Assembly: GCF_014842995.1 (NCBI RefSeq)
Contig: NZ_JACYXL010000001.1
Coordinates: 373,183-437,182 of the forward strand
Direction of reading: 5' to 3'
Origin: Rhodanobacter sp. 7MK24
Lineage (GTDB): Bacteria; Pseudomonadota; Gammaproteobacteria; Xanthomonadales; Rhodanobacteraceae
DNA: 64,000 bases
The translations under genes were made by a program, and so were the position numbers. Shown in pieces: positions 13,003 through 20,825 of the stretch (position 1 is the first letter of the stretch; each line of letters begins with the position of its first letter). Below the pieces are notes generated by a model. That model ran no database searches, had not been told where the DNA came from, and saw nothing but the letters and a program-made list of their open reading frames with translations.

Positions 13003-13077
13003 GGGCGGTTAGCTCAGCGGTAGAGCACTACCTTGACATGGTAGGGGTCACAAGTTCGATCCTTGTACCGCCCACCA
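13003..13077 (+). tRNA. tRNA-Val (anticodon GAC)
   Basis: The 75-base gene has acceptor arms GGGCGGT and ACCGCCC, discriminator A and an encoded CCA. The D arm TAGCTCAGCGGTAGAGCA, the anticodon loop CCTTGACATGG with GAC and the T arm AAGTTCGATCCTT are intact. Confidence 0.97.
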
Positions 13078-15004: not shown

Positions 15005-16012
15005 TCAGCGGTTGAAATACCCTCGGTACCACGCCACGAAGCGTTCCACGCCTTCCTCGATGGAGGTGCCCGGCGCGTAGCCCACGTCGCGGCGCAGCGC
15101 CGACACGTCCGCCCAGGTGTCGGGTACGTCGCCCGGCTGCATCGGCAGCAGGTTCTTTTCCACGCTGCGTCCCAGGTGCTGTTCCAGCAGTTCGATGAAG
15201 CGCAGCAGTTGCACCGGCTGGTCGTTGCCGATGTTGTAGACGCGGTAGGGCGCATTCGACGTGCCGGGATTCGGCGACTTCGCGTCGTAGGCCGGGTCGG
15301 GTGTGGCAGGACGGTCGAGGGTGCGGATCACGCCCTCCACGATGTCGTCGACGTAGGTGAAGTCGCGGCTGTGGTCGCCGAAGTTGAACACGTCGATGGC
15401 TTCGCCGCGGCTGATGCGGTCGGCGAACAGCATCGGCGACATATCCGGCCGCCCCCATGGCCCGTACACGGTGAAGAAGCGCAGGCCGGTGGTGGGCAGG
15501 CCATAGAGATGGCTGTAGCTGTGCGCCATCAGTTCGTTGGCTTTCTTCGTCGCTGCGTACAGGCTCACCGGGTGGTCCACGGCGTCCTCCACCGCGAACG
15601 GCAGCTTGCGGTTGGCGCCGTAGACCGAGCTGGAGGATGCGTAGACCAGATGGTCGACGCCACTGTGGCGGCAGGCTTCGAGGACGTTGCCGAAGCCGAC
15701 CAGGTTGCTCTGCACATAGACCTGCGGGTTCTTCAGCGAGTAGCGCACGCCGGCCTGCGCGGCCAGATTCACCACGCGTCGCGGCTTGAAACTTGCGAAG
15801 GCCTCGTTCACCGAGGCGGCGTCGGCCAGGTCGGCCCGACGGTGGGTGTAACCGGCATGGCCGGCGAAGCGGGCGAGGCGAGCCTCTTTCAGCGCCGGGT
15901 CGTAGTAATCGTTGTGGTTGTCGATGCCCAGCACTTCGTCGCCGCGCGCCAGCAGGCGTTCGGTCAGCGCGGCGCCGATGAAGCCGGCGGTGCCGGTGAC
16001 GAGGAGGCGCAT
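15005..16012 (-). CDS. NAD-dependent sugar-nucleotide epimerase, UDP-glucuronate 4-epimerase-like
   Basis: A 335-residue extended SDR. It has the NAD-binding motif TGTAGFIG (residues 6-13), the ASSSSVYG segment (125-132) with the catalytic Ser/Thr, and YAATK (152-156) with the catalytic Tyr and Lys. The segment DNHNDYYDPALK and the VYGPWGRPDMSP region are typical of UDP-glucuronate (or UDP-galacturonate) 4-epimerases, which supply galacturonate for lipopolysaccharide or capsule. The ATG at 16012 is preferred; a TTG two codons upstream is also open. No glycosyltransferase cluster is adjacent, so the glycan it serves is unknown. Confidence 0.85.
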   Translation of the reverse strand: MRLLVTGTAGFIGAALTERLLARGDEVLGIDNHNDYYDPALKEARLARFAGHAGYTHRRADLADAASVNEAFASFKPRRVVNLAAQAGVRYSLKNPQVYVQSNLVGFGNVLEACRHSGVDHLVYASSSSVYGANRKLPFAVEDAVDHPVSLYAATKKANELMAHSYSHLYGLPTTGLRFFTVYGPWGRPDMSPMLFADRISRGEAIDVFNFGDHSRDFTYVDDIVEGVIRTLDRPATPDPAYDAKSPNPGTSNAPYRVYNIGNDQPVQLLRFIELLEQHLGRSVEKNLLPMQPGDVPDTWADVSALRRDVGYAPGTSIEEGVERFVAWYRGYFNR

Positions 16013-16157
16013 GGGCAAAGCCTTTGAGGGGTGGAGGCCGGTCTATTGTCGGCGGCAGGGCGCTGAATTGACAGCGCGCGATGGGCTAAACTAGCGTCTC
16101 GCTATCCATTCCAGTGACCAAGGTGGCCCGCGCCAACGCGCCGGCCGAGCGTGTGAC

Positions 16158-16184
16158 ATGGCAACTACCCGTGACCCTCGCTGA
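16158..16184 (+). CDS. putative thrS leader peptide MATTRDPR
   Basis: An eight-codon reading frame, ATG GCA ACT ACC CGT GAC CCT CGC TGA, with two adjacent Thr codons. A weak ribosome site (GAG) lies eight bases upstream. It precedes an antiterminator/terminator pair and the threonyl-tRNA synthetase gene, the arrangement expected for attenuation by charged tRNA-Thr. A ribosome stalled at the Thr codons would leave the antiterminator free. One reaching the stop would cover its 5' arm. Not proven; it is too short to judge by coding statistics. Confidence 0.5.
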   Translation: MATTRDPR

Positions 16185-16193
16185 CGACTCTTC

Positions 16194-16235
16194 CGCCTTG
16201 TGCTCCACAAAGGCGCTCAAGCGCCTTTTTTGTTT
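16194..16235 (+). promoter_or_regulatory. candidate threonine attenuator upstream of thrS
   Basis: Two hairpins share bases and exclude each other. The antiterminator pairs CGCCTTGTG (16194-16202) with CACAAAGGCG (16206-16215, one bulged A... first C at 16206). The terminator pairs AAAGGCGC (16209-16216) with GCGCCTTT (16221-16228) around TCAA and runs into T residues up to 16231, then TTTT after one G. Upstream, CAAGGTGG (16119-16126) can pair with CCGCCTTG (16193-16200) and would act as the protector arm. The terminator ends 12 bases before the thrS start. Confidence 0.6.
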
Positions 16236-16247
16236 TCAGAGAATCCC

Positions 16248-18149
16248 ATGATCGAGATCACGCTACCCGACGGCAGCAAGCGCCCGTTCGACCATCCCGT
16301 ATCCGTGCAGGACGTGGCTGCCTCCATTGGCGCCGGCCTGGCCAAGGCCACCCTGGCCGGCAAGGTGGACGGCAAGCTGGTGGACGCCAGCTTCCCCATC
16401 GAGCACGACGCCAGCCTCGAGATCGTCACCGAGAAAAGCCCAGAGGCGCTGGAAATCCTGCGCCACTCCACCGCGCACCTGCTGGCGCAAGCGGTGCAGC
16501 GCCTTTATCCGGGCGCGCAGGTCACGATCGGCCCGGTGATCGACAACGGCTTCTATTACGACTTCGCCTACGAGCGCCCCTTCACGCCCGATGACCTGGA
16601 GAAGATCCAGGCGGAGATGGAGAAGATCGTCAAGGAGGCGCTGCCGGTGACGCGCAACGTGAAGTCGCGCGACGACGCGGTGGCATTCTTCCGTGGCATC
16701 GGCGAGGCGTACAAGGCGGAGATCATCGAGAGCATCCCGGCCAACGAGGAACTCTCGCTCTACTCGCAGGGCGAGTTCACCGATCTGTGCCGCGGCCCGC
16801 ACGTGCCCAACACAGGCAAGCTGCGTGCATTCAAGCTGATGAAGGTGGCCGGCGCGTATTGGCGCGGCGATTCCAACAATGCAATGCTGACGCGCATCTA
16901 CGGCACTGCGTGGTTGAACGACAAGGACCTCAAGGCCTACCTGCATCAGCTGGAAGAAGCCGAGAAGCGCGACCATCGCAAGATCGGCAAGGCGCTGGAC
17001 CTGTTCCACCAGCAGGAGGAAGGTCCCGGCATGGTTTTCTGGCACCCCCGTGGCTGGGCGATCTGGCAGCAGGTGGAGCAGTACATGCGCCGGGTGTACC
17101 GCCAGAGCGGCTACCAGGAAGTGCGTTGCCCGCAGGTGCTGGACGTGTCGCTGTGGAAGAAGTCCGGCCACTGGGACAACTACCAGGAAAACATGTTCTT
17201 CACCGAATCGGAGAAGCACACGTTCGCGCTGAAGCCGATGAACTGCCCCGGCCACGTGCAGATCTTCAACACCGGCCTGCACAGCTACCGCGAGCTGCCG
17301 ATCCGTTACGGCGAATTCGGCGCCTGCCACCGCAACGAGCCCTCGGGCGCGCTGCACGGCATCATGCGCGTACGCGCCTTTACGCAGGACGACGGCCATA
17401 TCTTCTGCACGCCCGATCAGGTCGAGGCGGAAGTCACGGCGTTCCATCTGCAGGCCATGAAGGTCTATGCCGACTTCGGTTTTACCGATATCGCGGTCAA
17501 GCTGGCACTGCGCCCGGACAAGCGCATCGGCTCGGACGAATTCTGGGACCGCACCGAAGACATGCTGCGTCGTGCACTGCGCGCGGCCAACGTGAACTGG
17601 GAGGAGCTGCCGGGCGAGGGCGCCTTCTACGCACCCAAGATCGAGTACCACCTGAAGGATTCCATCGGTCGCGCCTGGCAGGTGGGCACCATGCAGGTGG
17701 ACTTCATGATGCCCGAGCGGCTGGGTGCCGAATACATCGACGAACAGTCGCAGCGCCAGCGCCCCGCCATGCTGCACCGGGCCATTGTGGGGTCGATGGA
17801 GCGCTTCATCGGCATCCTGATCGAGCACCATGCCGGCCTGCTGCCGCCCTGGCTGGCGCCGGTGCAGGCCGCGGTGTTCAGCATTACCGACGCCCAGGCC
17901 GGATATGCCGGCGAGGTAGCGCAAACCCTTGTCGATAAAGGCTTCCGGGTAGAGGCCGATTTGCGCAACGAGAAGGTCGGCTATAAAATCCGCGAACATA
18001 CGTTGCAGAAAGTCCCTTATCTTCTGGTGGTCGGTGACCGCGAGAAGGAAGCGGGAACCGTTTCTGTGCGTACCCGTTCAGGTGAGGATCTGGGCAGCAT
18101 GCCGCTGGCCGACTTCATCGGACGACTGCAGGCCGAGACGCAACGCTGA
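16248..18149 (+). CDS. thrS: threonyl-tRNA synthetase
   Basis: A 633-residue class II aminoacyl-tRNA synthetase that charges tRNA-Thr and edits mischarged Ser. It has an N-terminal TGS domain (1-61), an editing domain with [10 protein letters not shown] at about 73-82, the catalytic core with motif 2 ([15 protein letters not shown]), the zinc-binding Cys in MNCPGH, and motif 3 ([13 protein letters not shown]). The C-terminal anticodon-binding domain begins near 530. Length is close to E. coli ThrS (642). The ATG at 16248 follows directly after the attenuator. This is the first gene of the translation operon, and infC follows 45 bases after the stop. Confidence 0.98.
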
Positions 18150-18194: not shown

Positions 18195-18722
18195 ATCGCT
18201 ACCACCGACAACAAGGGTAATCGCCGTAACCTGGAAATCCGCGTTCCGCGCGTACGCGTGATCGGCGCCGACGCTGAGCAGCTGGGCATCCTCACCCGCG
18301 ACGAGGCGCTGGCTCTGGCGCAGGAAGCGGGGATGGACCTGGTCGAAATCCAGCCGAACGGCGATCCGCCGGTCTGCCGCATCATGGACTACGGCAAGTT
18401 CAAGTTCGAAGCCCAGAAGAAGGCCCAGGCCGCCAAGAAGAAGCAGAAGCAGGTCGAGATCAAGGAAGTGAAGTTCCGTCCGGTCACGGACGTGGGCGAC
18501 TACGAGATCAAGCTGCGCAACATGCTTCGCTTCCTCGAGGAAGGCGACAAGGTCAAGGTCACCATCCGCTTCCGCGGCCGCGAGATGTCGCACCAGGACC
18601 TGGGCCAGGAAATGGCCAAGCGCATCCAGGTCGACATCGGCGAGAACGGCCAGGTGGAATCCTTTCCCCGCCTGGAAGGCCGCCAGATGGTCATGATGAT
18701 CGGCCCCAAGAAGAAGCAGTAA
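18195..18722 (+). CDS. infC: translation initiation factor IF-3, ATC start codon
   Basis: A 175-residue IF-3 that binds the 30S subunit and checks start-codon pairing. The N-domain ([15 protein letters not shown]) and C-domain ([18 protein letters not shown], then [10 protein letters not shown] and [14 protein letters not shown]) are complete. No ATG, GTG or TTG gives the full N-terminus. The frame opens at ATC (18195) with GGAGG eight bases upstream, giving [13 protein letters not shown] rare AUU/AUC start is the family hallmark and lets IF-3 repress its own translation. A GTG at 18258 would remove 21 conserved residues. A weak terminator-like hairpin (18727-18750) follows, before rpmI. Confidence 0.93.
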
Positions 18723-18961
18723 GGCGACGGCGGCTTGCGGGCTGCCGTTTCGCATGAGGCGATGGGCGGCCTTCCTGCCCGGATCAGCGCCATAGGCTGG
18801 CGCCGGTCCCGATTTCTCCGTACAATTGCCAGTTCGACCCGCCAGGAAGGGTCGTGAACCGATGTCGGCAGGATGGAAAGCGCGGCCTTGCGGTCGCCGC
18901 CGAATCAGTCAGAAACCGGGCCGCTCCCGTAAGGAGGGCGACCCCATCAAGGAGCATTTCC

Positions 18962-19159
18962 ATGCCCAAGATCAAGACCAACCGGGCGGCGGCGAAGCGT
19001 TTTCGCAAGACCGCTTCCGGCAAGTTCAAGGCCGGTCACGCCTTCAAGTCGCACATCCTGACCAAGAAGTCGACCAAGCGTAAGCGCAACCTGCGCGCCA
19101 CCAACCACGTCAAGGCGTGCGACACCAAGGGTGTGGCTCGCATGTTGCCGTATCTCTGA
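18962..19159 (+). CDS. rpmI: 50S ribosomal protein L35
   Basis: A 65-residue, very basic ribosomal protein beginning [20 protein letters not shown], the family signature. AAGGAG lies eight bases upstream of the ATG at 18962. It sits between infC and rplT as in most bacteria. The 239-base gap after infC has a TACAAT at 18821-18826 that might be an internal promoter. In other bacteria this region is where L20 binds to repress rpmI-rplT, but no specific L20 site was identified by eye here. Confidence 0.98.
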
Positions 19160-19176
19160 ACCGGGAGGACTAGACC

Positions 19177-19536
19177 ATGGCTCGTGTCAAGCGTGGCGTT
19201 ACCGCCCGTCGTCGTCACAAGAAGATCATTGGCCGCGCGAAGGGCTATTACAACGCCCGCCGCAAGGTTTTCCGCGTAGCCAACCAGGCCGTCATCAAGG
19301 CCGGCCAGTACGCGTACATCGGCCGCAAGCAGAAGAAGCGCCAGTTCCGCGCCCTGTGGATCGTGCGTATCAACGCTGCTGCCCGTCAGTTCGGACTGTC
19401 CTACAGCCGCCTCATCAACGGCCTGCTGAAGGCCGGCATCACGGTCGACCGCAAGGTGCTGGCCGACATCGCCGTGCACGACATCAAGGCCTTTGGTGCC
19501 ATTGCTGAAAAGGCGAAGGCCGCACTGGCAGCGTAA
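19177..19536 (+). CDS. rplT: 50S ribosomal protein L20
   Basis: A 119-residue protein needed early in 50S assembly and, in other bacteria, the repressor of its own operon. It has the expected basic N-terminus ([19 protein letters not shown]) and the C-terminal helical domain ([18 protein letters not shown]). GGGAGG precedes the ATG at 19177, 17 bases after rpmI. A dispersed repeat and a strong terminator follow. Confidence 0.98.
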
Positions 19537-19540
19537 TCTG

Positions 19541-19598
19541 TGCGCTCATCCTTGATCGCGAAGATCAAGAAGCGGCCATCCACGGCCGCACTCTTCAA
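19541..19598 (+). repeat. dispersed intergenic repeat family A, copy 1
   Basis: About 58 bases beginning TGCGCTCATCCTTGATCGCG and containing the hairpin GCGGCC-ATCCAC-GGCCGC. Related copies occur at 37508-37565 and 52301-52355 (both inverted). It lies directly behind rplT. Confidence 0.7.
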
Positions 19599-19618
19599 GG
19601 GATGCGCGTAACGTCTGC

Positions 19619-19653
19619 GGGGAGGAGGCCTAAAGCCTCCTCCCCGTTTTTAT
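19619..19653 (+). terminator. intrinsic terminator between rplT and pheS
   Basis: GGGGAGGAGGC (19619-19629) pairs perfectly with GCCTCCTCCCC (19635-19645) around CTAAA, followed by GTTTTTATTT. It should end most thrS-rplT transcripts; pheST then needs read-through or its own promoter. Confidence 0.92.
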
Positions 19654-19661
19654 TTGGATAA

Positions 19662-20825
<1,164 letters not shown>

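Follow-up and report, generated by a model that had tools for sequence, protein, structure and literature searches.

A putative threonine-codon attenuator upstream of thrS in Rhodanobacter and its relatives

The threonyl-tRNA synthetase gene thrS is the textbook example of translational autorepression by a synthetase. In E. coli, ThrRS binds anticodon-like hairpins of the mRNA and blocks the ribosome; the gene and the need are the same as here, and neither a leader peptide nor a terminator is described in the excerpted text of that source (PMC11088916). Is thrS controlled in this way in Rhodanobacter? In the stretch of 64,000 nucleotides from Rhodanobacter sp. 7MK24 that was analysed (the window), the gene is preceded by a short ORF with adjacent threonine codons, for which an original prediction had proposed a leader peptide and attenuator. 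From comparison of sequences across relatives we consider it highly probable that a ribosome-mediated transcription attenuator sensing charged tRNA-Thr controls thrS and probably also infC-rpmI-rplT. The parts of the locus are the following, all on the forward strand:

16068-16097, +, promoter-like pair, TTGACA (16068-16073) and TAGCGT (16092-16097) with a spacer of 18, seen in the sequence
16119-16126, +, arm 1 (CAAGGTGG), able to pair with arm 2, from the within- versus between-species pairing test
16125-16146, +, hairpin H1 (GGCC/GGCC, C-C mismatch, GCGC/GCGC), from RNAalifold on 30 sequences
16147-16160, +, conserved block GAGYGTGYGAC-ATG, running through the leader start codon, from the 30-sequence alignment
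16158-16184, +, leader peptide ORF MATTRDPR (ATGGCAACTACCCGTGACCCTCGCTGA) of 8 codons, a length found in 89 of 107 distinct leaders
16164-16169, +, putative regulatory threonine codons ACT ACC, codons 3 and 4, from counts in 107 leaders
16194-16202, +, arm 2, the antiterminator 5' arm, pairing with 16206-16215 in constrained folding
16206-16215, +, arm 3, the antiterminator 3' arm, from constrained folding of the window
16209-16236, +, intrinsic terminator, stem 16209-16216/16221-16228 with T-rich tail, from the terminator scan
16248-18149, +, thrS, threonine--tRNA ligase, the putatively regulated gene (NCBIfam TIGR00418, 715.6 bits)
18195-19536, +, downstream genes infC (ATC start), rpmI and rplT (NCBIfam equivalogs)

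The terminator scan recovered the hairpin that had been drawn originally, and on rechecking the ORF with its adjacent ACT ACC, the antiterminator, the terminator and CAAGGTGG all lay where they had been placed. The leader ORF reads ATG GCA ACT ACC CGT GAC CCT CGC TGA, with the stop codon at 16182-16184; a strong Shine-Dalgarno sequence was not seen upstream of its ATG. The antiterminator of the window has nine pairs with one bulged A, and in it CGCCTTGTG pairs with CACAAAGGCG. Bases 16209-16215 are common to both hairpins, and the thrS start follows 19 bases 3' of the terminator stem. The window ThrS is 93 % identical to a Rhodanobacter ThrS. The four genes thrS, infC, rpmI and rplT lie on the same strand and are presumably co-transcribed as an operon; the nearest gene upstream of the leader (15005-16018) is on the opposite strand.

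In the proposed mechanism, RNA polymerase would start near 16104 and a ribosome would begin the leader ORF. With ample Thr-tRNA the ribosome would reach the stop codon and cover arm 2, so that the terminator would form and transcription would end upstream of thrS. With scarce Thr-tRNA it would stall at codons 3-4, and the free arm 2 would pair with the first half of the terminator, letting the polymerase read into thrS. Without translation, arm 1 may take arm 2 and the terminator would form. Given the conserved threonine leader and the mutually exclusive hairpins, the cell probably makes more ThrRS when Thr-tRNA is short; the products of infC (IF3) and of rpmI and rplT (both ribosomal proteins) are probably under the same control.

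The leader was compared across relatives in a set chosen by the pattern GTG[CT]GACATG in 176 upstream regions. The 112 hits comprised 108 distinct leaders, and removal of one lacking a stop left 107, of which 85 came from the family of the window and 22 from an additional set of thrS loci. Threonine stands at codon 3 in all 107, encoded by ACT in 98. At codon 4 it is found in 83 leaders with a varying third base (ACC 46, ACG 31, ACA 3, ACT 3). At least two threonine codons, as originally predicted for the window, are present in 94 of the 107 leaders; the remaining 13 have a single one, which is a weak stall signal. Codon 5 is a threonine codon in 10 of the 24 leaders without threonine at codon 4, versus 13 of the other 83 (Fisher p=0.011). 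ACT accounts for 111 of 224 threonine codons in the leaders, but the window's operon genes use it for only 4 of 87. These positional and codon-usage counts favour a selection on threonine decoding, together with an additional preference for ACT. Between 50 and 130 bases upstream of the leader ATG, TTGAC occurs in 80 and TTGACA in 62 of the 107 leaders; a consensus promoter scan did not report the pair at 16068-16097.

A terminator was found 19-45 nt 3' of the stop codon in 101 of the 107 leaders; by the criteria used it was absent from six (L019, L028, L042, L044, L073 and L142, of which L044 is Xanthomonas hortorum). For the 101, pairing energies within species were compared with those between species by permutation, with no tree modelled, and the tests were rerun inside the family. 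Arm 1 paired better with the spacer after the stop codon within species (mean -10.0 kcal/mol) than between species (-9.0 kcal/mol, p=0.0005). The spacer likewise paired better within species (-16.5 versus -15.05 kcal/mol, p=0.0005) when its partner comprised the 5' arm of the terminator, the loop and four 3'-arm bases. Pairing of the spacer with 5' arm and loop was weak (p=0.08), and with the 5' arm alone it was without support across species (p=0.47). Within the family (n=84) arm 1:2 and the widest antiterminator held (p=0.0005), and the antiterminator with the loop only was unsupported (p=0.57). At the 17 loci that do not belong to the family set, both wider antiterminator versions held (p=0.0005 and p=0.0015), and arm 1:2 fell short of significance (p=0.10). 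Twelve tests on control pairings in Xanthomonadales gave p values of 0.10-0.97. The wider test was chosen after a narrow version had failed, since folding from stop codon to loop against shuffled spacers gave a mean z of only -0.20, with 4 of 101 leaders at p≤0.05. In Luteimonas (L012, L033) the arm 2 CGAGG pairs with CCTCG of the terminator loop; the letters differ from those of the window, the arrangement is similar. When arm 2 of the window was forced onto the wider stretch, it paired with loop and 3' arm at -11.7 kcal/mol. The RNAalifold consensus did not choose the terminator and paired GAGNGTGY with the terminator 3' arm. The conservation check in relatives that had been proposed as a decisive one leaves the attenuator standing: the threonine codons, the place of the stop codon, the terminator and the pairings that exclude each other were conserved or co-varied.

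The evidence from the window alone is weaker than that from the family. Its fold has a z of -1.83, equalled by 9 of 200 shuffles, and against shuffled spacers the p value was 0.10 for arm 1:2 and 0.02 for arm 2:3. To model switching, the leader of the window was folded under constraints, each ribosome being taken to cover 31 bases. With the 3' terminator arm untranscribed, a ribosome placed at codon 3 left the antiterminator a probability of 0.99; one at codon 4 gave 0.97, and one at the stop codon 0.00. In this folding, the claim that a stalled ribosome frees the antiterminator and one at the stop blocks it is borne out. For the full-length leader at equilibrium, the terminator had a probability of 1.00 in all four states, the stalled ribosome included; therefore the switch must be kinetic, its outcome being settled while the leader is transcribed, as it is in other attenuators. 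Without ribosome and without the 3' terminator arm, the antiterminator (pair 16196-16213) had a probability of 0.94 versus 0.05 for arm 1:2, so that an off state in the absence of translation is not clear in the window. The pairing by which CAAGGTGG could act as a protector arm, part of the original prediction, is backed by the comparison of relatives (p=0.0005); in the window itself it loses to the antiterminator until the terminator has been transcribed. Conversely, the antiterminator as originally drawn forms in co-transcriptional folding of the window, and its pairing with the terminator 5' arm alone did not hold across relatives. Taken together, the locus has an ORF with cognate codons, a terminator before the first gene, mutually exclusive and co-varying pairings, and a block by the ribosome at the stop codon in constrained folding.

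Other explanations for the conserved leader start were weighed. Hairpin H1 has changes on both sides at three pairs (RNAalifold, 30 sequences). H1 and the block AGYGTGYGACATG look more conserved than a plain attenuator requires, in sequences selected by the block pattern; part of the invariance of the block is due to this selection, because the aligned sequences were chosen by GTG[CT]GACATG. The TGYG in the block would be compatible with the core of a pause signal for RNA polymerase, and its NGU fits, on sequence, the threonine anticodon. The pyrimidines at -13 (16145) and -4 (16154) are correlated in the 107 leaders (T-T 17, T-C 27, C-T 2, C-C 60), which may point to an alternative hairpin spanning the start codon of the leader. 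One further leader has A at -13, and the two C-T leaders include that of the window. We regard it as improbable, though worth stating, that the locus is a switch with two inputs, in which stalling at the threonine codons would be combined with a second sensor (H1 and the AGNGUGYGACAUG block) where the leader ORF starts; this sensor would be a programmed pause of the polymerase or an anticodon mimic binding ThrRS. If true, free ThrRS would block leader translation and drive termination, and autorepression of the E. coli type would be fused with classical attenuation, with a common origin in Xanthomonadales and Betaproteobacteria. That the block is solely such a ThrRS-binding operator, a tRNA-Thr anticodon mimic in or around AGNGUGYGAC beside an incidental short ORF, is very unlikely. 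It contains NGU (N being C in 55, T in 49, G in 2 and A in 1 of the 107 leaders), shares, in the window, CGUGUG with the sequence upstream of E. coli thrS, and the correlation of the two pyrimidines (T-T 17, C-T 2, not corrected for phylogeny) could result from a small alternative hairpin. However, C at -13 disrupts the presenting hairpin in 62 of 107 leaders, the loop would have 6 or 8 nt instead of 7, and the site lies about 90 bases upstream of the thrS start; such an operator also leaves the threonine codons, the stop position and the terminator unexplained.

Conservation for RNA structure alone, with ACTACC kept as partner of GGTGG and no coding role, is hardly credible in view of the codons themselves: codon 4 varies synonymously, and codon 5 carries threonine in 10 of the 24 leaders without it at codon 4, whereas AGGTGG is invariant in the 30-sequence alignment. 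Betaproteobacteria, moreover, have a threonine ORF at thrS without this RNA. Only the retention of ACT at codon 3 beyond the needs of the amino acid (98 of 107), a codon rare in the operon genes (4 of 87), agrees with a structural role. Least probable of all is a constitutive terminator of an upstream transcript with a chance ORF and a thrS promoter further downstream. The sequence offers nothing in its favour; the gene next upstream (15005-16018) is transcribed from the other strand, a promoter-like pair precedes the leader, the distance from terminator stem to thrS is only 19 bases, and the leader is conserved across relatives. Known RNA families gave no alternative. The sequence AAGGTGGCCCGCG resembles a T-box motif; this candidate was rejected, as Rfam gave no T-box match. 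At the window leader the threonine operon leader RF00506 gave no match, Rfam scans of the leader in the window and nine relatives left every family below its gathering score, and a permissive scan of 16050-16280 returned only matches below the gathering scores, including isrK (22.7 bits versus a gathering score of 50), which was taken as chance.

How far the threonine-codon attenuator extends was surveyed by a motif-free scan for ORFs of 5-30 codons that end 5-70 bases before a terminator and have two codons of one amino acid within three positions. Among 96 distinct thrS upstream regions of the family, threonine ORFs were found in 84, against a shuffled null with a mean of 8.5 and a maximum of 14. 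Alanine (22), arginine (21) and glycine (16) came next and were within the null ranges, and histidine with 9 (mean 2.3, maximum 6) was the sole other amino acid slightly above. Nine of the 12 misses have leaders of the same type with one threonine codon, and L185 has another leader type, also with one threonine; in the thrS upstream regions of L095 and L174 no leader was seen. A covariance model, R1, built from 30 sequences (20 from the family of the window), matched 171 of 197 family genomes in 25 of 26 genera at E≤0.01, matches being counted wherever in the genome they lay. In the order 45 of 121 genomes were matched, some weakly. In the class there were 12 matches in 185 genomes. Three of them had E below 1e-15, namely the window's own genome and two more from its order; nine with E from 9e-5 to 0.01 are probably chance. 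The leader is unique in its own genome, with one strong R1 match (103.7 bits) and the next at 20.7 bits. Among 80 thrS upstream regions elsewhere in the class, threonine ORFs were not in excess (2 versus a null of 2.4); this survey covered 80 of 159 thrS-bearing genomes from other orders, some of which may be betaproteobacterial families. Proline ORFs numbered 16 in the same regions (null 4.5), which we think are read-through of upstream tRNA sequence.

Betaproteobacterial thrS genes have a differently built threonine leader with a terminator in 32 of 43 loci, against a null of 4.4 and at most 8, with peptides such as MTPRTTTKLWE and MTPRTLTETTSERR. The list of 43 omits L018, L023 and L047, which bear betaproteobacterial names and in none of which a convincing threonine leader was found. 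In the same scan arginine (17, null maximum 15), phenylalanine (5, maximum 4) and tryptophan (3, maximum 2) were slightly above the null maximum. In 27 distinct loci covariation linked the spacer to the loop and 5' arm of the terminator (p=0.0005). Of the controls, ORF:terminator was not significant (p=0.89) and ORF:spacer was (p=0.002), so that part of the betaproteobacterial signal may reflect relatedness. These 27 loci, nearly all with betaproteobacterial names, have a threonine-rich ORF and a terminator before thrS and a co-varying antiterminator (L021, L026, L027, L030-L032, L034-L038, L041, L043, L046, L048, L049, L052, L056-L058, L062-L065, L075, L077 and L079). A third leader form occurs in three loci of one genus of the window's family, with MTRIFDILD (L185), MTRTFDILD (L186) and MTRTFNLI (L189); L010 has it as MTRTGLLN and L020 as MTRGTGNH. 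An R-T or T-R-T core is present in all three forms, which could indicate common descent.

The closest classical counterpart lies in the same gene cluster of E. coli, where pheM is likewise annotated as the leader peptide of an aminoacyl-tRNA synthetase operon. It precedes pheS, has 14 codons, senses Phe-tRNA and attenuates pheST; the window leader precedes thrS and has 8 codons, two of them for threonine. By analogy, it would work like the pheST attenuator. Threonine codons in a leader peptide followed by a terminator are also known from thrL (RF00506), with the difference that thrL has a long run of threonine and isoleucine codons and its target is thrABC instead of thrS. In Firmicutes, the T-box of thrS senses tRNA-Thr charging by antitermination as well, but binds the tRNA directly. 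An article by Lopatovskaya, Seliverstov and Lyubetsky from 2010 may predict attenuation at synthetase operons. A search of open papers found no report of a thrS leader in Xanthomonadales or Betaproteobacteria. In the excerpted text of Naville and Gautheret 2010 (PMC2965389), the only ThrRS named is that of E. coli, and thrS is absent from the main text. In Streptomyces lividans, a member of another phylum, thrL-thrS has a leader peptide with two threonines (MKRVRPFLETTPGFVPAR) before thrS, a likeness drawn from the peptide and not from the RNA; this thrL has 18 codons and a leaderless start, and its authors found no clear intrinsic terminator, according to the excerpt of that study (PMC8079986). 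The original view of a distinct solution therefore stands with respect to E. coli, but a leader peptide at thrS, judged by the same excerpt, had already been reported (PMC8079986). The mechanism is classical, and because of the likeness to pheST and the reported Streptomyces leader, its probable use at thrS in Xanthomonadales is an addition to the known attenuators. Two large bacterial groups, Xanthomonadales and Betaproteobacteria, appear to control thrS by threonine-codon attenuation, which would make thrS a case of one gene with different control mechanisms in different lineages. The comparison also yields RNA parts that can be tested (arms, stop position, H1, start block) and a covariance model for annotation.

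Some observations concern the surroundings of the leader. The window contains a gene for tRNA-Val(gac) at 13003-13077, and CAAGGTGG (16119-16126) is perfectly complementary to the 5' anticodon strand CCACCTTG of tRNA-Val(GAC), taken from the tRNA-Val upstream of thrS in locus L017; a function for the complementarity of CAAGGTGG and CCACCTTG was not found. Downstream, the gene order is thrS, infC, rpmI, rplT, a terminator-like hairpin, pheS and pheT. The strong hairpin (19617-19647, 13 pairs, from a scan restricted to 19500-19860) lies between rplT and pheS, at the site of pheM in E. coli; a phenylalanine-rich ORF before it was not noticed by eye. Elsewhere in the own genome (L319, minus strand), an ORF with long runs of threonine and isoleucine codons, MTSRAGDIASTITTTITTGTGTRSGRSVVRS, precedes a homoserine dehydrogenase gene and is followed by a hairpin lacking a T run. 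The thrS leader with its two threonine codons may respond to a stronger shortage only. The infC start (18195-18197) is the rare codon ATC, preceded by a good Shine-Dalgarno sequence; it presumably resembles the AUU start of E. coli infC, which is used in the autoregulation of IF3.
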